A stretch of DNA of 64,000 bases from Bacteroidota bacterium (GTDB lineage Bacteria; Bacteroidota; Bacteroidia; 2-12-FULL-35-15), in contig JAOQAG010000014.1 in assembly GCA_025963715.1 (NCBI GenBank), forward strand, positions 30,065 through 94,064, given 5' to 3'. Position numbers and translations under genes: made by a program. The notes beneath the pieces were generated by a model. That model was not told the origin of the DNA. It did not search any database and saw only the letters and a list, made by a program, of their open reading frames with translations. This document shows, piece after piece, positions 2,152 to 52,820 of this stretch (position 1 is the stretch's first letter; each line of letters starts with the position of its first letter).

Positions 2152-3048
2152 TCAATTCGTCGTCTGCAAGATCTTCTGGTACTTATTACTATTGGTAGGA
2201 TCTATCAAATTAAGTGTATTCACCACTTTGGCCTTTTCATCGGTAAAAGCACCCGAAAAAATATTGATCACTTCATCTGCTTTTGCATTAAAAAACACCT
2301 GCATGTTAAACGACAATGGTTTTGCATCGTGCACTTTCCTTAATGTTTCAATGCTTTCCGCAATCACAGCACGCCCTGCATCTTTATTCTCTACCATGGC
2401 ATCCAGCCCTTTGCGGTGATAATTATACATGCATTCGCGCAATGGTACAAACGATGCATCCATCATGTTGTTGATCAGCCAGTAACGGTTTTTATTGCTT
2501 TCAAAAGCTCTCCAGCCTTTATCTGCTGCGTCCTGCGCGGTATTTACAATTGCCAGTGCTTTTTGAAGATAAGGCGTTCCGCCGTTCAATGCATACGTAT
2601 CGTAATCCAGCCCTAAAATAATGTTTGCATAATACGCCAGTACAGACGTAAGATTGGAAGTATAAGAATTGTCGTTGTAATCCAGCGGCTGATTTTCCAG
2701 GTATTTGAAGGTGAAATCAGGATCGTTGTAATTCAGTAAAACAGATGTGTAGGAAGCTTTAAAAACCGGGCGGCGCGATTGGATCTGGATCGTGCCCGTA
2801 AATGCATCTGCATCACGCGAAGTAAGGTTGATCAGGATACTGCAGTCAATACGCTCTTCCAGGCGGAAGGCATCATTGGTCCATTTACGGTTGTTCATAA
2901 ATTCGTTGATCGCCGTTTGCAATACCTCGTAAATATGTTTGTCGCTACCTGAGATCTGCTGAGAAAGCACCTGCACCTGGCAGTTCAATTCCTGCGCGTT
3001 GATCCTTACAACTGAAAAAAATAAAGCTATGAATATAAATTTCCGCAC
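2152..3048 (-). CDS. DUF4835 family secreted protein (PorD-like)
   Basis: 298-residue exported protein: the first 18 residues are a hydrophobic signal peptide ending ...RINA before QELNCQVQV. The rest is a conserved DUF4835 sequence (YYANIILGLDYDTYAL and NNMMDASFVPLRECMYNYHRKG blocks). This family is nearly universal in Bacteroidota, sits beside coaBC and recN, and has been linked to the type IX secretion apparatus as PorD; that link comes from memory of the family and is not visible here. It starts 5 bp after the coaBC stop and is therefore probably translated from the same mRNA. Confidence 0.85.
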   Translation of the reverse strand: MRKFIFIALFFSVVRINAQELNCQVQVLSQQISGSDKHIYEVLQTAINEFMNNRKWTNDAFRLEERIDCSILINLTSRDADAFTGTIQIQSRRPVFKASYTSVLLNYNDPDFTFKYLENQPLDYNDNSYTSNLTSVLAYYANIILGLDYDTYALNGGTPYLQKALAIVNTAQDAADKGWRAFESNKNRYWLINNMMDASFVPLRECMYNYHRKGLDAMVENKDAGRAVIAESIETLRKVHDAKPLSFNMQVFFNAKADEVINIFSGAFTDEKAKVVNTLNLIDPTNSNKYQKILQTTN

Positions 3049-43230: not shown

Positions 43231-43495
43231 AAGCCGACTTACTAACCGCTGATCTACCCCATCAAGGGACAAAAGAGCCCTTGAAGGGGATGCTCCGAAT
43301 GTTGATTTCGTTTTGATTTTACTTAATCAAGCCGACGTTCTCACCGCTGATCTACCCCTGTCAGGGACAAAAAAGCCCTTGAAAGGGGGCGCTCCAAAAT
43401 TTTAATCCGTTGTAACTTTATTTATTAAAGCCGACGTGCTAACCGCTGATCTACCCCTGTCAGGGACAAAAAGCCCTGACAGGAGCGCCCCGGTT
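43231..43495 (+). repeat. Tandem array, 98-99 bp period, 2.7 copies
   Basis: Units start AAGCCGAC at 43231, 43329 and 43428. Each has about 62 conserved bases: the common core ACCGCTGATCTACCCC, a palindrome (TGTCAGGGACAAAAAAGCCC or ATCAAGGGA...CCCTTGA), GCGCTCC, and then a less conserved AT-rich linker of about 35 bp. The last unit is cut short after its palindrome. Confidence 0.75.
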
Positions 43496-43572
43496 TTTTA
43501 TTCCACACAGATTAGTTATTCGTTAAAATTCGTTATTCGTTGTTACCGTTATCTGTACCCGATTTTTTCTGT

Positions 43573-43580
43573 TAAATTTG
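43573..43580 (+). promoter_or_regulatory. Promoter -7 box for multihaem cytochrome
   Basis: TAAATTTG, exact TAnnTTTG, 18 bp before the ATG at 43598. Confidence 0.5.
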
Positions 43581-43597
43581 TATTCCTGTACTTGAAT

Positions 43598-45622
43598 ATG
43601 AAATTTTCCATCCGCACATTTATTTTGTTTTTTGCATTTTCAGTGATCGTACTGTTGATGACTTTTTGCGGACCGGATCAAACACCGCCGCCGGTGGCTG
43701 TAAAACCCGCTGATCCTTACCTTAATCATAGTGATACTGCTCATTACGTGGGAATGCACCAATGCATGCTTTGCCACCAGAATATTTACAACACCTTTAT
43801 TGAAACAGGCATGGGTAAAAGTTTTGACCTGGCAACAAAACACAAAAGCTCTGCAAAGTTTGACAAGAATACGGTGATCTACGATAAATATTCTGATTTT
43901 TATTATCATCCGTTCTGGGACAAAGACAGTCTGAAATTTATGGAATTCCGGATGAAAGGAAAAGATACTATTTTCAAACGCATTGAAAAGGTTGATTATA
44001 TTGTAGGTTCCGGGCAGCATACCAATTCGCACATACAAAGTGTGAACGGCTATTTGAACCAGATGCCGATGACTTTTTACACGCAAAAACAACAATGGGA
44101 TTTACCGCCTGGATTTGAACATGGCTTTAATACACGCTTTGCGCGGAAGATAGGATTGGAGTGCATGAGCTGCCACAATACATTACCCGGATTTGTGGAA
44201 GGATCTGAAAATAAATTTACAAGCGTACCCGAAGGTGTGAGCTGTGAGCGTTGTCACGGACCGGGTAGTGTTCACGTGCAGCAGCGCTCCACGGGATCAA
44301 AAATTGATACCTCCAAATACATTGATTACTCGATCGTGAATCCGGGTAAGTTGCCGATCGACCTGCAGTTTGATGTTTGTCAGCGCTGCCATTTGCAGGG
44401 AAATACAGTATTGAAAGAAGGAAAATCATTTTTTGATTTCCGTCCGGGTATGAAATTATCGGATTACATGACCACGTTTTTGCCGCGTTATAAAAATGCG
44501 GACGATCAGTTCATCATGGCTTCGCACGCTGATCGTTTGAAACAAAGTAAATGCTTTATCAATAGTTTTAAACCCGAAACGGATTCGACTTCATTGCGTC
44601 CGTATAAAAATTCACTGACCTGCGTTACCTGTCACAATCCTCACGTAAGTGTGCGTGTAACGGGCAAGGAAGTGTTTAACAACGCCTGCAAAAATTGTCA
44701 TAATACTACTACGCACAACGAGTTGTGTTCCGAGAAAGAAAGTGTACGCGCTGCAGTGCAGGATAATTGCGTGGGTTGCCACATGCCGCGTTCGGGCTCT
44801 ATTGATATCCCGCACGTGACGGTACATGACCATTTCATCCGCAAACCGATGAAAAAAGAGGAAGTACAAAAAGTGAAAGAATTTATCGGTTTGGCAGCGA
44901 TCAATGAAAAACATCCGGACAATAAAATTATGGCACGGGCGTACATTCAGCAATACGATAAGTTTGAGTATAACCCTGTGTTCCTTGATTCTGCTAAGAA
45001 ATACCTGGGCGATAAAACGGCGGATGACGTAAAAGAAAATTTAGAAGACCTGGTGCATTTGTATTTTATAAAACAGGATTATGCACGGATCCTGAGTTAT
45101 GTAAATCAAACCGGGAAGGATGAATTACTGAACCGTGTGCTGATAAAAAAATCGTGGAGTAATGATAATGCATGGACGCTATACCGCATTGGGGAAGCGT
45201 ATTACAACACACAAGACATTGCGGATGCTTATTTATTTTATAAAAAAGCGGACGAACTGGCGCCGTATAATCCCGAATTTAAAAACAAGCTGGGCGCATC
45301 CTTAATGGCGCAAAATAAAGTTACGGAAGCCATGGCGGTTTTTGAAGCGACTTTAAATGAGAACCCTAAATTTGTTCCTGCACTTACTAATTTAGGATAT
45401 GCGTATTTAGTTTCCGGTAATCCTGATCAGGCGAACGTATTTTATAAACGTGGATTGGCCTTGGATCCGGATTATGAGCCATTGCTGATGAATGTAGCGG
45501 GATTGTATGCGTATCAGAAAAACTATGCAGCAGCGCGTGAAATGATCGGCAGGGTTTTGAAAAAAAATCCGAAGAATGAGCAGGCGAAGCAGGCGTTTGA
45601 GCAATTAAAAGGACTGAATTAA
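43598..45622 (+). CDS. Multihaem c-type cytochrome lipoprotein with C-terminal TPRs
   Basis: 674 residues from the Met at 43598; 54 codons of open frame before it are repeat DNA. Signal peptide with lipobox LMTFCGPD. Seven CxxCH haem sites occur: HQCMLCH, LECMSCH, VSCERCH, DVCQRCH, LTCVTCH, NACKNCH, DNCVGCH. The last 200 residues are tetratricopeptide repeats (TLYRIGEAYYNTQDIADAYLFYKKADELAPYN, and following blocks). The combination resembles c554/NrfA-like doubled-CXXCH proteins with TPRs in Bacteroidota; it likely passes electrons outside the inner membrane, with TPRs binding a partner. No other redox genes flank it. Confidence 0.88.
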   Translation: MKFSIRTFILFFAFSVIVLLMTFCGPDQTPPPVAVKPADPYLNHSDTAHYVGMHQCMLCHQNIYNTFIETGMGKSFDLATKHKSSAKFDKNTVIYDKYSDFYYHPFWDKDSLKFMEFRMKGKDTIFKRIEKVDYIVGSGQHTNSHIQSVNGYLNQMPMTFYTQKQQWDLPPGFEHGFNTRFARKIGLECMSCHNTLPGFVEGSENKFTSVPEGVSCERCHGPGSVHVQQRSTGSKIDTSKYIDYSIVNPGKLPIDLQFDVCQRCHLQGNTVLKEGKSFFDFRPGMKLSDYMTTFLPRYKNADDQFIMASHADRLKQSKCFINSFKPETDSTSLRPYKNSLTCVTCHNPHVSVRVTGKEVFNNACKNCHNTTTHNELCSEKESVRAAVQDNCVGCHMPRSGSIDIPHVTVHDHFIRKPMKKEEVQKVKEFIGLAAINEKHPDNKIMARAYIQQYDKFEYNPVFLDSAKKYLGDKTADDVKENLEDLVHLYFIKQDYARILSYVNQTGKDELLNRVLIKKSWSNDNAWTLYRIGEAYYNTQDIADAYLFYKKADELAPYNPEFKNKLGASLMAQNKVTEAMAVFEATLNENPKFVPALTNLGYAYLVSGNPDQANVFYKRGLALDPDYEPLLMNVAGLYAYQKNYAAAREMIGRVLKKNPKNEQAKQAFEQLKGLN

Positions 45623-46712: not shown

Positions 46713-46947
46713 ATACGGATAACGAACAGGAACGAATATTACGAATCTGTGTGATACGGATAACGTTCACCTGAACGATTCGGGCAGGAACAGGAACATT
46801 CTTCGACAAGCTCAGGATAACGCAGATCTGTGTTTTCTTCTTTTTCGTACTCCCTGCGGATCGGGAGATCATTATTTAAAAATATTCGTACAAGATTTTA
46901 CAGCTTAAAATGCTAATTTTATAAAAAATCCATATCTTATATAGTAC

Positions 46948-47403
46948 ATGCTTTCCAAAAAAACGAAATACGCTATCAAAGCACTGGTGCACCTTGCCAA
47001 AAATTACGGCAAAGGCCCTATATTGATCAGCCGCCTTTCGGAAGAGGAAAAGATCCCGAAAAAATTTTTAGAAGCGATCCTGCTTGATCTGCGGAAGCAG
47101 GGAATCTTAGGCAGCAAGATTGGAGTAGGGGGCGGGTATTACCTGATCAAAAAGCCGGGTGAAGTGGTGTTGAGCCAGGTGTTGCGCTCCATCGACGGGC
47201 CGATCGCACTGATCCCCTGTGTGAGCATGAATTTTTATGAACGCTGTGACGATTGCCCGGATGAAACTATTTGCGGCATCCGCGATGTGGTGATGCAGGT
47301 GCGGGATGCTTCCTTAAAGATCCTTTCGGAAACCACGCTCGGCGATATTTTAAAAAGAGAAACACTCTTAAAAGCAAAGAAAAAAAAAGCTGTTAAAAAA
47401 TAA
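46948..47403 (+). CDS. Rrf2 family transcriptional regulator
   Basis: 151 residues. Winged-helix start MLSKKTKYAIKALVHLAKNYGKGP, recognition segment IPKKFLEAILLDLRKQGIL, wing GVGGGYYLIKKP. The C-terminal part has four cysteines (Cys91, Cys100, Cys103, Cys109, in PCVSMNFYERCDDCPDETICG) that could bind an Fe-S cluster or sense thiols; relatives such as IscR, NsrR and CymR/CysR regulate iron-sulfur, NO or cysteine genes. It lies immediately upstream of a palindrome-bearing promoter and a Cys-rich leader peptide in front of the porin and ABC transporter, and most likely controls them. Confidence 0.88.
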   Translation: MLSKKTKYAIKALVHLAKNYGKGPILISRLSEEEKIPKKFLEAILLDLRKQGILGSKIGVGGGYYLIKKPGEVVLSQVLRSIDGPIALIPCVSMNFYERCDDCPDETICGIRDVVMQVRDASLKILSETTLGDILKRETLLKAKKKKAVKK

Positions 47404-47422
47404 GTTCATTTTTTTTATTTTA

Positions 47423-47447
47423 AATATCTACTAAATTGATAGATATT
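47423..47447. promoter_or_regulatory. AT-rich palindromic operator
   Basis: Perfect 8-bp arms AATATCTA and TAGATATT separated by nine bases. It sits just before the -7 box (47451-47458), where a repressor would block RNA polymerase. The adjacent Rrf2 protein is the obvious candidate binder. Confidence 0.6.
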
Positions 47448-47450
47448 ATA

Positions 47451-47458
47451 TATATTTG
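47451..47458 (+). promoter_or_regulatory. Promoter -7 box for leader peptide/porin/pst-like operon
   Basis: TATATTTG, exact TAnnTTTG, 38 bp before the leader-peptide ATG and about 215 bp before the porin gene. Confidence 0.6.
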
Positions 47459-47495
47459 TCCCGCATTCAAAAAAAATGAATGATTGATAATTAAC

Positions 47496-47570
47496 ATGAG
47501 CAACAGCAAATACATACTCAAAAGGGTTTTCAGGGCTATCCGGTCCATGTGCTGTTATATGTGCCTTTAG
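47496..47570 (+). CDS. Putative 24-residue leader peptide with Cys-Cys-Tyr-Met-Cys end
   Basis: ATG 47496 to TAG 47568. Reads MSNSKYILKRVFRAIRSM followed by CCYMCL: basic residues then three cysteines among the last six codons. It sits in the long untranslated leader between the promoter and the porin gene. Small size, position and codon content suggest an attenuation-type peptide sensing cysteinyl-tRNA rather than a functional protein. Homologues upstream of other sulfur-related operons would settle this. Confidence 0.6.
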   Translation: MSNSKYILKRVFRAIRSMCCYMCL

Positions 47571-47585
47571 GCATATTCTGTTTTT
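47559..47585 (+). promoter_or_regulatory. Terminator-like hairpin over the end of the leader peptide
   Basis: ATGTGCC-TTTA-GGCATAT can form a 7-bp stem (one G-U pair) spanning the last Met, Cys and Leu codons and the stop, followed after four bases by a T5 run (47581-47585). A ribosome paused at the Cys codons would cover the 5' arm, allowing read-through into the transporter genes. Confidence 0.45.
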
Positions 47586-47672
47586 ACTGAAGAGCATTGT
47601 TTCAGAAACAACCTTCGGATTCCCAAAAAAGCGAGATCATTTAATTATTTCAAAATCATTTATATCTATTTT

Positions 47673-48809
47673 ATGAAAACAAAATCCTTACTTATTTTAT
47701 TTATACTATTTTCTTTCAGCGCGAAAAATTTTGCACAGAATTCCGACGATGTGCTCAATTTACTGATCCAGAAAAAGCTCATCACGGAAACGGAAGCCGA
47801 TTCGCTGCGTGCTGATAACGCATTGAAACAACAGGAGCAAAAAGAAAAGCAAAAATTTTTCCAGATCCTTGCCAACAAACAAATTCAGATCGGCGGTTAC
47901 ACACAATTGCGTTATCAGTCGTTCCAGGAAGCCGGTAAGCCGGATGGTTTTGATGTGCGCCTGGCGCGGCTCGACATCAAAGGAAACATCAACCCGTATT
48001 GGGAATACCGCCTGCAAACGGATTTTGCCGGTTCCCCGAAAATTGTGGATGCATATGCTGCTTACAAACCATTTGATTTTTTGAAAATCACAGTCGGACA
48101 ATTAAAAGTGCCATTGTCGCCGGAAAATATTGCGGAATCTTCCAAGCTGGAAAGCATTGACCGCGCACAGGTGGTGGAAGCGCTCGCCGCGAGAAGCAAA
48201 GATGTGATCGGGAACCAGAACGGCCACGACATTGGCATACAGGCAAGTGGGAGTGTGGTAAAAATCAGGGAGCGTTACCTGCTGGATTATTACATCGCGT
48301 ACCTGAACGGTGCGGGTGTGAATGTGAGCGATAACAACGAATCGAAAGATGTGGCGGGACGTTTGGTGTTTCATCCCTTTGCCGGATTTGATATTGGCGG
48401 CGCGTATTACAACGGGCTCGACAAATTCGGGACACCGGCAAAAGACCAGCAGCGCTTGCGCTACGCAGGCGAGATCGCATTCACATATAAAGGCGCGAAC
48501 ATCAAAGCGGAATGGATCCACGGTCAGGATGGAATTATCCAGCGGGAAGGCTGGTTTGCACAAGCTACTTATTTTGTGTGGAAGCGCAAAGTGCAGCTGC
48601 TGGCCAAATACGACACGTATGATCCGAATGTGATCCACCTGCCGGACACATCGCCAACGCAGCACGACATCAGCACGTATTATATTTTCGGCGCTAATTA
48701 TTATTTCAATGATTGGACAAAGCTGCAGGTGAATTATTCTTACAGGCAGGAGCAAACAAAGCAGATCAACAACGATTTAATTTCTGCACAAGTACAAATC
48801 AGTTTTTAA
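47673..48809 (+). CDS. Outer-membrane porin of the OprO/OprP (phosphate-selective) family
   Basis: 378 residues, signal peptide to NFA-QNSDDV. An N-terminal coiled coil (LLIQKKLITETEADSLRADNALKQQEQKEKQKF) precedes a 16- to 18-strand beta barrel, with GGYTQLRYQSFQEAGKPDGFDVRLARLDIKGNINPYWEYRLQTDF typical of the family and a C-terminal aromatic residue (QVQISF). First full-length gene of the operon with the PstSCAB-like transporter. By homology it passes phosphate or another oxyanion across the outer membrane. Confidence 0.88.
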   Translation: MKTKSLLILFILFSFSAKNFAQNSDDVLNLLIQKKLITETEADSLRADNALKQQEQKEKQKFFQILANKQIQIGGYTQLRYQSFQEAGKPDGFDVRLARLDIKGNINPYWEYRLQTDFAGSPKIVDAYAAYKPFDFLKITVGQLKVPLSPENIAESSKLESIDRAQVVEALAARSKDVIGNQNGHDIGIQASGSVVKIRERYLLDYYIAYLNGAGVNVSDNNESKDVAGRLVFHPFAGFDIGGAYYNGLDKFGTPAKDQQRLRYAGEIAFTYKGANIKAEWIHGQDGIIQREGWFAQATYFVWKRKVQLLAKYDTYDPNVIHLPDTSPTQHDISTYYIFGANYYFNDWTKLQVNYSYRQEQTKQINNDLISAQVQISF

Positions 48810-48836
48810 TTCACATCATTTTATAAATACATAATC

Positions 48837-49814
48837 ATGAAAAAAATAATTTTAATTGTTGCGATCACCGGCTTCGCATGGTTCACATTCAATTCCAATA
48901 AAAAAATAGATCCGCCAAAAGTCGCAACTACGGCACTTACCGGGAACATAACTATTACAGGTGCATTTGCTTTGTACCCGGTTGCGGTAAAATGGGCGGA
49001 TGAATTCAAAAAAATAAATCCGGGTGTAACCATCGATATTTCTGCAGGTGGTGCCGGTAAAGGAATTACGGATGTGCTTTCGAAAGTATCAGACATTGGT
49101 TTGGTATCGCGGAACCTGAACCCGGAAGAGATTAAAAAAGGCGCGTATCCTTTTGCCGTTACCAAAGATGCGGTAGTGCCTACAGTAAGCGCCACCAATC
49201 CGATCTTAAAAGATTTGCTTGCAAAAGGAATAAAAAAAGAAGCACTGAACAATATTTTTATCACCGGAAAATACAAAACCTGGGGCGAAGCGGTAAACAT
49301 AAAAAGCGCTGTACCGATCCATGTATATACCCGTTCGGATGCAGCCGGTGCCGCAGAAACCTGGGCGAATTATTTTGGTAAAAAGCAGGAAGACCTGCAG
49401 GGCGTTGCCGTGTATGGCGATCCGGGATTGGCGCAGGCTGTGAAACGCGATCCTACCGGGATTGGCTTTAATAACATTGTGTATGTGTACGATTCAAAAA
49501 CAAAAAAACAAACCAACGGTGTGATCATTCTGCCACTCGATTTAAACAACAACGGTAAAATTGATCCGGAAGAAAACTTTTACGACACCATGGATCAGAT
49601 CATTGCAGCCATTGCGGATGGAAAATATCCGGCGCCGCCTGCACGCGATCTGTATTTTGTAACGGTGGGGAAACCGCAGAACAAAGCCGTTAGCGCCTTT
49701 ATTCGTTTTGTGCTTACAGAAGGGCAGAAATATGTACATGATGCGGGTTATATTAAATTAAGCGATGCGAAAATAAAAGGAGAATTGGCGAAATTATCAA
49801 CGGTGGATTTGTAA
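48837..49814 (+). CDS. PstS-like substrate-binding protein
   Basis: 325 residues, signal peptide (MKKIILIVAITGFAWFTF). Mature domain: ITITGAFALYPVAVKWADEFKKINPGVTIDISAGGAGKGITDVLSKVSDIGLVSR, followed by TKDAVVPTVSATNP, a YTRSDAAGAAETWANYF segment and a C-terminal helix-rich region. The fold and anion-loop layout (GAF...SAGGAGKG) match the PstS/periplasmic-binding superfamily, but the loop differs from canonical PstS (STFxxP, SxGSGxG), so phosphate specificity is not assured. Confidence 0.85.
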   Translation: MKKIILIVAITGFAWFTFNSNKKIDPPKVATTALTGNITITGAFALYPVAVKWADEFKKINPGVTIDISAGGAGKGITDVLSKVSDIGLVSRNLNPEEIKKGAYPFAVTKDAVVPTVSATNPILKDLLAKGIKKEALNNIFITGKYKTWGEAVNIKSAVPIHVYTRSDAAGAAETWANYFGKKQEDLQGVAVYGDPGLAQAVKRDPTGIGFNNIVYVYDSKTKKQTNGVIILPLDLNNNGKIDPEENFYDTMDQIIAAIADGKYPAPPARDLYFVTVGKPQNKAVSAFIRFVLTEGQKYVHDAGYIKLSDAKIKGELAKLSTVDL

Positions 49815-49873
49815 AAAGAAAAGATTCTGTTGCAGGAAAATGTTTCTTTTACCTGATATTTTACATCGAAGTT

Positions 49874-49966
49874 GTCATCCCGGGCTTGACCCGGGATCTC
49901 ATAAATGTTTGCAGTATGTTGTTATTAGTTCTTAAATAACAGATCCCGGGTCAAGCCCGGGATGAC
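49874..49966 (+). repeat. Dispersed palindromic element, copy 3, between pstS- and pstC-like genes
   Basis: GTCATCCCGGGCTTGACCCG at the left, mirrored GGGTCAAGCCCGGGATGAC at the right, with ATCTCATAAATGTTTGCA inside. In the mRNA it would form strong hairpins between the binding-protein and permease cistrons. Confidence 0.8.
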
Positions 49967-50032
49967 AGATCTGGAGAGTATTTCTGTTTCCATAGCAACA
50001 TTGTTCTACAACATAATCAAAGAAAATAAAAC

Positions 50033-50923
50033 ATGAACATCCGCATTGTAAAAGACAAAGCCGTTAAAAATATTTTTCTACTGCTCACTGTTAGTTCAGT
50101 GTTGCTGGTGGTACTTATTTTTATTGGCTTGTATTACAAATCCGTACCCATTTTGCATTCTACGTCCTTGTCGCATTTATTATTTTCAAGCGAATGGAAA
50201 CCTTCGAAAGCGCAATTTGGATTTGCCGCTTTTATTGCGGGAACATTGTGGGTAACGCTCATTGCCATTGTCATTGCATTGCCTTTATCCTTGCTTTGCG
50301 CGATCTATTTATCGCAATATGCACCGCGCCGGTTAACGCGTTTTCTCAATCCGCTTATTGATTTATTGTCAGGTATTCCGCCGGTGGTATATGGTGTGTG
50401 GGGAGTATTGGTGGTAGTGCCGTTCATCCAGGAACATGTTGCGCCGCATTTTGTGGAATATTCATCCGGCTACAGCGTACTGGCCGGTGGAGTAGTGCTG
50501 GCGATCATGATCTTCCCGCTGATCATTAATATCCTGGGAGAAGTGTTTGCCAACGTGCCAAAGGAATTAAGTGAAGCATCGCTTTCCATCGGGGCAACCC
50601 AATGGCAAACGATCAAATATGTGCTGCTGAAAAAATCGCGGCCCGGAATTGTAGCAGCCGTTGTACTTGCTATTTCCCGGGCATTTGGCGAAACCATTGC
50701 CGTGTTGATGGTTTGCGGAAATATCCCGGAATCGCCACACTCGGTGTTTGATTCCTGCTATCCCTTACCGGCGCTGATCGCCAACAATTACGGCGAAATG
50801 ATGTCGGTGCCGCTCTACGATTCGGCATTGATGTTTGCTGCGCTTATTTTATTTGTGATCATCTTTTTATTTAACGCCGGGTCACGCATTATTTTAAACC
50901 GCCTGGAAAGGAGAATGAATTAA
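50033..50923 (+). CDS. pstC: PstC-like ABC transporter permease
   Basis: 296 residues, six transmembrane helices. The EAA-type loop near residues 176-196 (VPKELSEASLSIGATQWQTIKYVLLKKSRPGI) contacts the ATPase. SGIPPVVYGVWGV and the SRAFGETIAVLMVCGN segment are PstC marks. Part of the operon; its stop overlaps the start of the next gene (TAATG). Confidence 0.9.
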   Translation: MNIRIVKDKAVKNIFLLLTVSSVLLVVLIFIGLYYKSVPILHSTSLSHLLFSSEWKPSKAQFGFAAFIAGTLWVTLIAIVIALPLSLLCAIYLSQYAPRRLTRFLNPLIDLLSGIPPVVYGVWGVLVVVPFIQEHVAPHFVEYSSGYSVLAGGVVLAIMIFPLIINILGEVFANVPKELSEASLSIGATQWQTIKYVLLKKSRPGIVAAVVLAISRAFGETIAVLMVCGNIPESPHSVFDSCYPLPALIANNYGEMMSVPLYDSALMFAALILFVIIFLFNAGSRIILNRLERRMN

Positions 50924-51768
50924 TGAACAAACGGAAAATAGAAGAAACATTTTTTAAAGGATTGATGCATGCCGCTACAATTGTGATCGTCGGTTCGTTG
51001 TTTTTAATTCTCTGGACGGTGGTCTCGAAAGGCTTTCATGCATTCAATTGGGACATGGTCAGCAAAGTGCCCGAAGGCGGTTTTTACATCGGCAAAGGCG
51101 GTGGGATTTTAAATGCCATCATCGGATCGGTTTATATTACCGTTGGTTCCGCTTTGCTGGGCCTGGTGATCAGCATTCCGGTTGTTTTGTATCTCAATGT
51201 GTATTCAAAAAAAGGTTCGCGTTTTGCTTCCGCGACAAGGCTTGCGTTTGATGTATTGTTTGGCATTCCTTCCATTGTTTACGGTGCATTTGGCTTTACG
51301 ATCATGGTATTCTTCGGGTTAAAAACATCCTTGCTGGCCGGAATTATCACGGTAACGTTATTGATCATTCCCATTCTTGTGCGTGCCATGGATGAAGTAG
51401 TACGCGTGATCCCCTTCGAATTATCGGATGCAGCTTATTCGCTGGGTGCCACCCGTTGGGAAACCGCAAAAGTATTGTTGCGTCAATCGGTGCCCGGGAT
51501 CATCACCGCCTTGTTACTCTCCTTTGGGCGTGCCATCGGCGATGCTGCCTGTGTGCTGTTCACTGCCGGTTATACCGATAACATTCCCACATCGCTCCAT
51601 CAGCCAACGGCAACATTGCCGCTTGCTATTTTCTTTCAGCTCAGCAGCCCGATCCCCGAAGTGCAGGAACGGGCGTATGCAGCAGCGTTGATCCTTACGG
51701 TGATCGTGTTGATCATCAGCATTGCGGCAAAATATTTTAGTAAAAAATTCTCAAAAAATAAGATATGA
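50923..51768 (+). CDS. pstA: PstA-like ABC transporter permease
   Basis: 281 residues. Begins in the stop of pstC. VSKVPEGGFYIGKGGGILNAIIGSVYIT and GIPSIVYGAFGFTIMV are PstA family features; EAA loop IPFELSDAAYSLGATRWETAKVLLRQSVPGI; FGRAIGDAACVLFTAG lies in the fifth helix. Pairs with PstC to form the channel; the 4-bp overlap with pstB indicates translational coupling. Confidence 0.9.
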   Translation: MNKRKIEETFFKGLMHAATIVIVGSLFLILWTVVSKGFHAFNWDMVSKVPEGGFYIGKGGGILNAIIGSVYITVGSALLGLVISIPVVLYLNVYSKKGSRFASATRLAFDVLFGIPSIVYGAFGFTIMVFFGLKTSLLAGIITVTLLIIPILVRAMDEVVRVIPFELSDAAYSLGATRWETAKVLLRQSVPGIITALLLSFGRAIGDAACVLFTAGYTDNIPTSLHQPTATLPLAIFFQLSSPIPEVQERAYAAALILTVIVLIISIAAKYFSKKFSKNKI

Positions 51769-52529
51769 TAAACCTTGCTCCGCACATCAGTGTGAAAAAT
51801 CTGAATGTATACATCGGTGATGCGCACATTTTAAAAAATATTTCCATTGATATTCCCGATAAAAAAGTTACCTCATTCATCGGGCCATCCGGCTGCGGAA
51901 AAACCACACTGCTCAAAACATTTAACCGTTTGCTCGATCGTCAGAATGATGTACGCATAGAAGGACAGGTGCTGGTGGATGGCGAGGATCTGTATGGAAA
52001 AGATACGGAAGTAACACATATCAGAAAAAAAATGGGATTATTGTCGCAGCGCCCTTTCCCTTTGCCAATGAGCATTTACGACAATATTGCTTACGGCCCG
52101 CGCATTCACGGAATTAAAAATAAAAAGAAATTAAATGAGCTGGTAGAACATCATTTACGTTCCACCGCTTTGTGGGACGAAGTGAAAGACCGTTTGCATT
52201 CGCCTGCCACACGCTTGTCGATAGGGCAGCAGCAGCGCTTGTGCCTGGCACGCGGGCTGGCGGTGGAACCCGAAATTATTTTGGGTGATGAGCCTACTTC
52301 GGCACTGGATCCGGTATCGACGCAGCGCATTGAAGAATTATTTTTGCAGCTGAAAGATAAATATACATTGGTATTGGTTACGCACATTCTGCGCCAGGCA
52401 AGGCGTGTGTCGGATTACATTGCATTTATCTACATGGGCGAGATCATCGAATTCGGCCTGACGGAAGAATTATTACTGAACCCAAAAGAGCAGCTGACAA
52501 AGGATTATATTAAAGGATTTATTAGTTGA
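51765..52529 (+). CDS. pstB: PstB-like ABC transporter ATPase
   Basis: 254 residues. Walker A GPSGCGKT (residues 40-47), Q-loop GLLSQRPFPLPMSIYDNIAYG, signature LSIGQQQRLCLARGLA (usual LSGGQQQR with Ile for Gly), Walker B IILGDEPTSALDP and H-loop VLVTHIL. Energises uptake through PstCA. In canonical Pho operons phoU follows; here the operon ends and a terminator follows. Confidence 0.92.
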   Translation: MINLAPHISVKNLNVYIGDAHILKNISIDIPDKKVTSFIGPSGCGKTTLLKTFNRLLDRQNDVRIEGQVLVDGEDLYGKDTEVTHIRKKMGLLSQRPFPLPMSIYDNIAYGPRIHGIKNKKKLNELVEHHLRSTALWDEVKDRLHSPATRLSIGQQQRLCLARGLAVEPEIILGDEPTSALDPVSTQRIEELFLQLKDKYTLVLVTHILRQARRVSDYIAFIYMGEIIEFGLTEELLLNPKEQLTKDYIKGFIS

Positions 52530-52608: not shown

Positions 52609-52632
52609 ATTGAAAAAAAAATTTAATCAACG

Positions 52633-52724
52633 CGTCATTGCAAGGGCTTTTCGCCTGAAGCAATCTCATTCTAGATTATATACTGGTGTGAGATTGCTTC
52701 AGGCGAAAAGCCCTCGCAATGACG
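52633..52724. repeat. 36-bp inverted repeat (CGTCATTGC ... GCAATGACG)
   Basis: Arms 52633-52668 and 52689-52724 (35/36 pairs; CGTCATTGCAAGGGCTTTTC and its mirror) around a 20-bp loop, followed by T8. The CGTCATTGCGAGG...GAAGCAATCTC type is known as a dispersed repeat in Bacteroidota. It is either a MITE-like element or a very strong terminator. Confidence 0.75.
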
Positions 52725-52820
52725 TTTTTTTTAAGTAATTTTTCTATGATTCAAAGTTCCTGATACTCAATTAATATTTTATTGGTAATTTAAACACATC
52801 AAATTTGTGTATCGATAAAA

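Follow-up and report, generated by a model that had tools for sequence, protein, structure and literature searches.

Attenuators of the trp type combine a terminator with a competing antiterminator. Upstream of actinobacterial cys operons, one study describes short leader open reading frames (ORFs) with runs of Cys codons near the stop codon, and it reports the Mycobacterium Cys leaders as being without clear terminators (PMC1262725). In a flavobacterium, leader-peptide attenuation is described upstream of amino-acid operons in a second source, whose supplement may include cys (PMC9723704), and a TauE-family sulfate transporter is known from a third (PMC11535334). A literature search, conducted mostly outside subscription papers, returned nothing on sulfate importers of the PstS type, nor on Cys/Met attenuators in Bacteroidota. 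Here we describe an operon (46948-52529, all genes on the + strand) in a 64,000-nucleotide (nt) stretch of contig JAOQAG010000014.1 from a Bacteroidota genome (the window, within which all its coordinates are given) that encodes a PstSCAB-like transporter together with an Rrf2-family regulator and a Cys-rich leader peptide. The operon is very probably a sulfate ATP-binding cassette (ABC) importer of PstSCAB descent, predicted to be turned on in cysteine shortage through release of the Rrf2 protein and action of the Cys leader.

Operon layout and the binding protein

The first gene encodes an Rrf2-family regulator with four cysteines (46948-47403, +; PF02082, 113.5 bits) and is followed by a perfect palindrome, ATATCTA-N9-TAGATAT (47424-47446), which its sequence and the recurrence of similar sites mark as a predicted Rrf2 operator. 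The palindrome sits just 5′ of TATATTTG (47451-47458, +), a candidate -7 promoter element read from the sequence by comparison with TAnnTTTG, which we take to be the Bacteroidota -7 consensus. Downstream are a 24-codon leader peptide, MSNSKYILKRVFRAIRSMCCYMCL, ending SMCCYMCL (47496-47570, +; recognised as an ORF and by its Cys run), an OprP-type porin (47673-48809, +; Porin_O_P PF07396, 67.5 bits), a PstS-fold binding protein with altered anion loops that is likely sulfate-binding (48837-49814, +; PBP_like_2 PF12849, 126.5 bits), and genes for two permeases and an ATPase, all three of which exceed their NCBIfam equivalog cut-offs: PstC-like (50033-50923, +; TIGR02138, 289.8 vs 196.45 bits), PstA-like (50923-51768, +; TIGR00974, 217.4 vs 193.45 bits) and PstB-like (51765-52529, +; TIGR00972, 349.2 vs 343.2 bits). 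Each of these elements had been read from the sequence in a first-pass annotation, including the position of the palindrome by the promoter and the CCYMCL end of the leader, and each was confirmed; family searches bear out the gene names.

The binding protein has the PstS fold: the best rows of both fold lists are PstS, ModA-type binding proteins rank lower, and no sulfate-binding protein is among the best 50 rows of either list. It did not reach the PstS models (TIGR02136, 125.7 vs 206.6 bits; TIGR00975, 74.3 vs 205 bits), and its identity to both PstS proteins of its own genome is 28-29%. We compared it with its relatives in 64 homologous loci (the window, 4 named contigs and 59 stretches from other genomes) and with 16 ordinary PstS proteins, taken from 14 of the 24 weak-match loci L014-L037 (10 were lost to an ORF-start filter) and, for two of them, from L043. 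Positions 43, 45, 73, 170 and 172 are Ser or Thr in 16 of the 16 ordinary proteins, whose phosphate cargo is an assumption, and are Ala in 63, 64, 64, 56 and 64 of the 64 relatives, respectively; Lys75 is present in 63 and Asp168 in all 64. The first-pass annotation had noticed a non-canonical anion loop in the window's protein. A blastp search with the PhoU and DUF47 proteins of the same genome found no relative of either among the ORFs of the 64 loci, some of which are short, in agreement with the absence of phoU noted earlier. An ordinary Pst operon was rejected on the basis of the altered anion loops, the missed PstS cut-offs and the lack of PhoU.

A second Pst locus is present on contig C16 of the same genome. 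Its PstB scores 405.1 bits vs 348.7 bits for the PstB of the window, and the locus also holds an OprP-type porin, two PstS genes, PhoU, a DUF47 protein and a PHO4 transporter.

Two long inverted repeats accompany the operon in the window, one with 27-nt perfect arms between the pstS-like gene and pstC (49873-49967) and one with 55-nt arms at 85% 3′ of pstB (52614-52743); both resemble dispersed repeat elements. Upstream of the operon region, a gene at 43436-45622 encodes a multihaem-cytochrome-like protein that contains TPR repeats.

Sulfur genes linked to the transporter

Close relatives of the binding protein are separated from other PstS proteins by a sharp gap in E value (1.2e-109 or better vs 3.6e-14 or worse). 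Their spread is patchy: 4 of 58 other relatives have them, at 5 places in all, as do 17 of 396 genomes of the class (the window's genome included) and 47 of 201 genomes of family f39, from which 44 were taken into the set of loci (G446, G467 and G574 were left out). Among the best 120 of 7192 protein matches, several are from Flavobacterium, and many are named phosphate transport protein by their source.

Neighbouring genes were named with family models at one representative f39 locus and elsewhere by blastp clusters or by eye. In 34 of the 64 loci, all from f39, a complete sulfite reductase-cobA-cysG-cysH-cysD-cysN operon is oriented divergently to the transporter. Three further loci have sulfur genes in other arrangements: on one strand with sulfite reductase before the S, C and A genes and cysD, cysN, cysH and cysG after them (L072), with sulfite reductase 3′ of pstB (L084), and with a CysG-type siroheme-synthase domain fused to a TauE/SafE membrane domain directly after pstB (L039, 12558-14075, +). 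Across the class, 16 of 17 genomes that encode the binding protein have CysD, compared with 219 of the 379 that do not encode it (p 0.0015), and a PAPS-reductase-family gene (PAPS, 3′-phosphoadenosine 5′-phosphosulfate) was present in all 19 further genomes with the binding protein that were tested. CysD as a perfect marker of the transporter was rejected, as one genome (G270) is without CysD despite having a PAPS-reductase-family gene.

The first-pass annotation had proposed import of sulfate or another sulfur oxyanion, with co-occurrence with cysD/N/H and lack of phoU in homologous clusters as the check. Both the linkage and co-occurrence of sulfur genes and the altered loops support this predicted function; co-occurrence and lack of phoU came out as proposed, with one whole family adjoining cysD/N/H and sulfite reductase, and neither a phoU flank nor PstS-like anion loops were seen in the homologous loci. 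These data bear on the possibility that the operon is instead a second, high-affinity phosphate importer, located near sulfur genes by chance in some relatives. Such a function would agree with the phosphate-family scores of PstC, PstA and PstB, the PstS fold of the binding protein and the OprP-type porin, but we regard it as highly improbable because the anion-loop Ser/Thr residues are replaced in nearly all 64 relatives, the PstS model cut-off is missed, PhoU is not found nearby while an ordinary PhoU-linked Pst system exists elsewhere in the genome, and the linkage to sulfur genes occurs in four arrangements.

The identity of the anion is a separate matter. We infer sulfate as the ligand, just as we infer the binding and signal of the Rrf2 protein and the action of the window's leader. 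Among sulfur oxyanions, sulfate is the preferred candidate, since the neighbouring genes encode enzymes that activate sulfate. Thiosulfate would fit the sulfur setting too, and ModA-type proteins do appear, at lower rank, in the fold lists, so that a different oxyanion, for example thiosulfate or molybdate, can be envisaged as the cargo; however, the linked genes encode sulfate adenylyltransferase, adenosine 5′-phosphosulfate (APS)/PAPS reductase and sulfite reductase, a set that thiosulfate use would not require, and no molybdenum gene was recognised among the neighbour clusters listed, which makes this alternative improbable. In the sulfate importer that we propose, sulfate would pass the outer membrane via the OprP-type porin, the PstS-like protein would capture it and PstCAB would pump it inward, supplying sulfate adenylyltransferase, APS/PAPS reductase and sulfite reductase.

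Other genes share these surroundings. In a 1.2 Mb genome (G268, locus L072), the transporter, haem/siroheme, ThiF-type and sulfate-reduction genes form one same-strand run, in which a close Rrf2 relative was not found. An AhpC-type 1-Cys peroxiredoxin is encoded in the transporter cluster of some relatives (L066, 8982-9614, -; L048, 6102-6734, -, the latter by eye), and in the window's genome it belongs to the sulfite-reductase operon (L135, 7704-8339, +).

Rrf2 regulator, operator-like sites and Cys leaders

The four cysteines of the Rrf2 protein are spaced C-x8-C-x2-C-x5-C, a pattern kept in 12 of 12 aligned Rrf2 proteins. Relatives with the same spacing are encoded near transporter operons in 11 loci and within the cys operon of genome G008, and three genomes (G110, G167 and G494) encode Rrf2 some 6-9 kb 5′ of cysD, in the same orientation. 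Since relatives were also present in all 14 tested f39 genomes without the transporter, Rrf2 likely serves sulfur genes more widely. An operator consensus, CTACTAAATWGRTAG, was derived from the porin-type loci, with no contribution from the divergent loci. At up to 2 mismatches, this consensus is matched in the promoter regions of 25 of the 64 transporters, compared with 16 of 3420 control tiles; by type, the 25 are 9 of 16 porin-type, 14 of 34 divergent and 2 of 14 other regions. The f39 sites fall between sulfite reductase and PstS, and CAAATAT, which resembles a -7 box and faces PstS, directly adjoins the best operator match in 32 of the 34 divergent regions. In G008 an operator-like site occurs both at the transporter and at the cysH-cysD-cysN operon; in the window's genome the exact site occurs at the transporter only. 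Rrf2 is likely a repressor of the operon, with the palindrome as its predicted operator. In cysteine shortage, the repressor would be released and the Cys-rich leader would act, turning the operon on.

Cys-run leaders were counted by a criterion set after the first of them had been seen, namely an ORF just upstream in which 7 residues include 3 or more Cys. Of 15 porin-type operons, 9 have such a leader, compared with 3 of 515 other genes in these loci (Fisher 1.3e-13); 18 porin-type loci had been found, and L068, L069 and L075 were lost to script filters. The Cys runs are similar, while the rest of the peptide mostly differs, as in the endings SMCCYMCL, CTYCCICL, KNCCNCL, LYMCCC, MHSCCC, SYCCCC and IYCCCSC. 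In the window as well as in G008 and G031, the last Cys codon is overlapped or followed by a small TGCC-TTNN-GGCA hairpin. A known RNA element at the window's leader was rejected, as the one weak match (SraG, 21.1 bits with a cut-off of 50; 46850-46955) lies off the leader, and a search for known RNA elements in seven cys loci matched only a tRNA.

Two of the three control matches are PhyH-type dioxygenase genes near the transporter (L112, 5128-5934, -; L119, 10976-11782, -), each with a Cys-run leader and an operator-like site upstream; both genes stayed in the control count. Because they also have the operator-like site, these genes may belong to the same regulon, and the dioxygenase is perhaps a sulfur-scavenging enzyme.

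Leaders with both Cys and Met codons precede the sulfate-reduction operons. In the window's genome, the leader of the cysC-cysD-cysN operon ends MMCCMMCCI, and the sulfite-reductase operon starts with two tandem leaders, each with its own terminator (L135, contig C10 of the window's genome, G000; 2670-3026), one ending NMMCCMMCI and one containing TMCMCCMM. The motif MCCMMC occurs at 16 sites, two of which are in the window's genome, and these are spread over 11 of 59 genomes; all belong to one genus and are not independent, and the reversed pattern gave 0. Fifteen of the 16 sites are upstream, on the same strand, of cysC, an aldo-keto/sulfite-reductase operon, sulfite reductase or cysH, and the other is at a contig end. 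An intrinsic terminator follows every one of the 16, its T tract beginning 64-74 nt past the stop codon, and a stretch 3-6 nt past the stop codon can pair over 8-11 bases with the 5′ arm of the terminator, a pairing matched by at most 0.026 of 500 shuffles. Judged by sequence, the leader, terminator and antiterminator together are the anatomy of trp-type attenuation: a ribosome reaching the leader stop codon would cover the antiterminator strand and allow the terminator to form, and stalling of the ribosome at Cys or Met codons would keep that strand uncovered.

Several observations weigh against the function and control proposed here. The best models for PstC, PstA and PstB remain phosphate-family ones; the 34 divergent loci come from a single family and hence are not independent; G270 carries two copies of the binding protein and no CysD at E 1e-60; and the cys genes of the window's genome sit on other contigs. 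At 2 mismatches, 39 of the 64 promoters have no operator-like site, and definition of a genome-wide regulon by the operator pattern alone was rejected, because the pattern was not clearly above its reversed control in 8 genomes (6 vs 17 for the control in the window's genome). Cys leaders are absent from 6 of 15 porin-type operons and mostly missing at divergent-type loci, and the window's own leader is followed by neither a terminator nor an unusual fold (z -0.51; no stem and T tract in the sequence). This last result, as well as the divergent-type relatives that have an operator-like site mostly without a leader, would be expected if the operon were a sulfate importer with Rrf2 as its sole control and the window's leader were a bystander. 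We consider a bystander leader unlikely, given that the Cys run is kept at the frequencies above while the remaining peptide differs and that Cys/Met attenuators of full anatomy exist in the same genome.

With less confidence than we place in the function of this operon, we think it probable that this part of the Pst family is a class of sulfate importers across Bacteroidota that now carries phosphate labels, within a sulfur regulon held by two locks, Rrf2 and Cys/Met leaders, the latter acting as trp-type attenuators on the sulfate-reduction operons. If so, genes now named as phosphate transporters carry sulfate, and sulfur and phosphorus uptake by Bacteroidota would have to be reread in genomes and metagenomes. 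The binding protein would be a natural example of how a receptor for phosphate can be remodelled to take an almost identical anion, which bears on the classic question of anion discrimination, and the leaders would form a Cys/Met attenuator regulon in Bacteroidota that is directly testable.

Comparison with described systems

The regulator resembles CymR and IscR, its nearest named models, in belonging to the Rrf2 fold family and in its Cys-bearing C-terminal part, but it falls under both equivalog cut-offs (69.1 vs 195 and 64 vs 207.55 bits, respectively) and differs in its C-x8-C-x2-C-x5-C spacing and in its operator-like sequence. Like trp attenuators, the reduction-operon leaders have a terminator with a competing antiterminator. 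They share with the actinobacterial Cys leaders, as that study describes them (PMC1262725), a short ORF with a Cys run near the stop codon before a cys operon; by the same comparison they differ in occurring in Bacteroidota, in using Met and Cys codons together (MCCMMC) and in having clear terminators on the reduction operons, and the transporter operon here has a leader of its own.

The transporter is like PstSCAB in fold and in the order of binding protein, two permeases and ATPase, and like the Pst operon of its own genome in having an OprP-type porin. It is unlike PstSCAB in that the loop Ser/Thr residues are replaced, with Lys75 and Asp168 new, and in that Rrf2, a Cys leader and sulfur genes are found instead of PhoU. 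Its predicted task and setting, sulfate import by an ABC system together with or next to cys genes, are those of SulT (CysTWA with Sbp/CysP), although its permeases (54.2 and 35.7 vs 240 bits) and ATPase (115.8 vs 342.75 bits) score far under the SulT models and its binding protein is PstS-type. We conclude that the cluster descends from Pst and is predicted to work like SulT.

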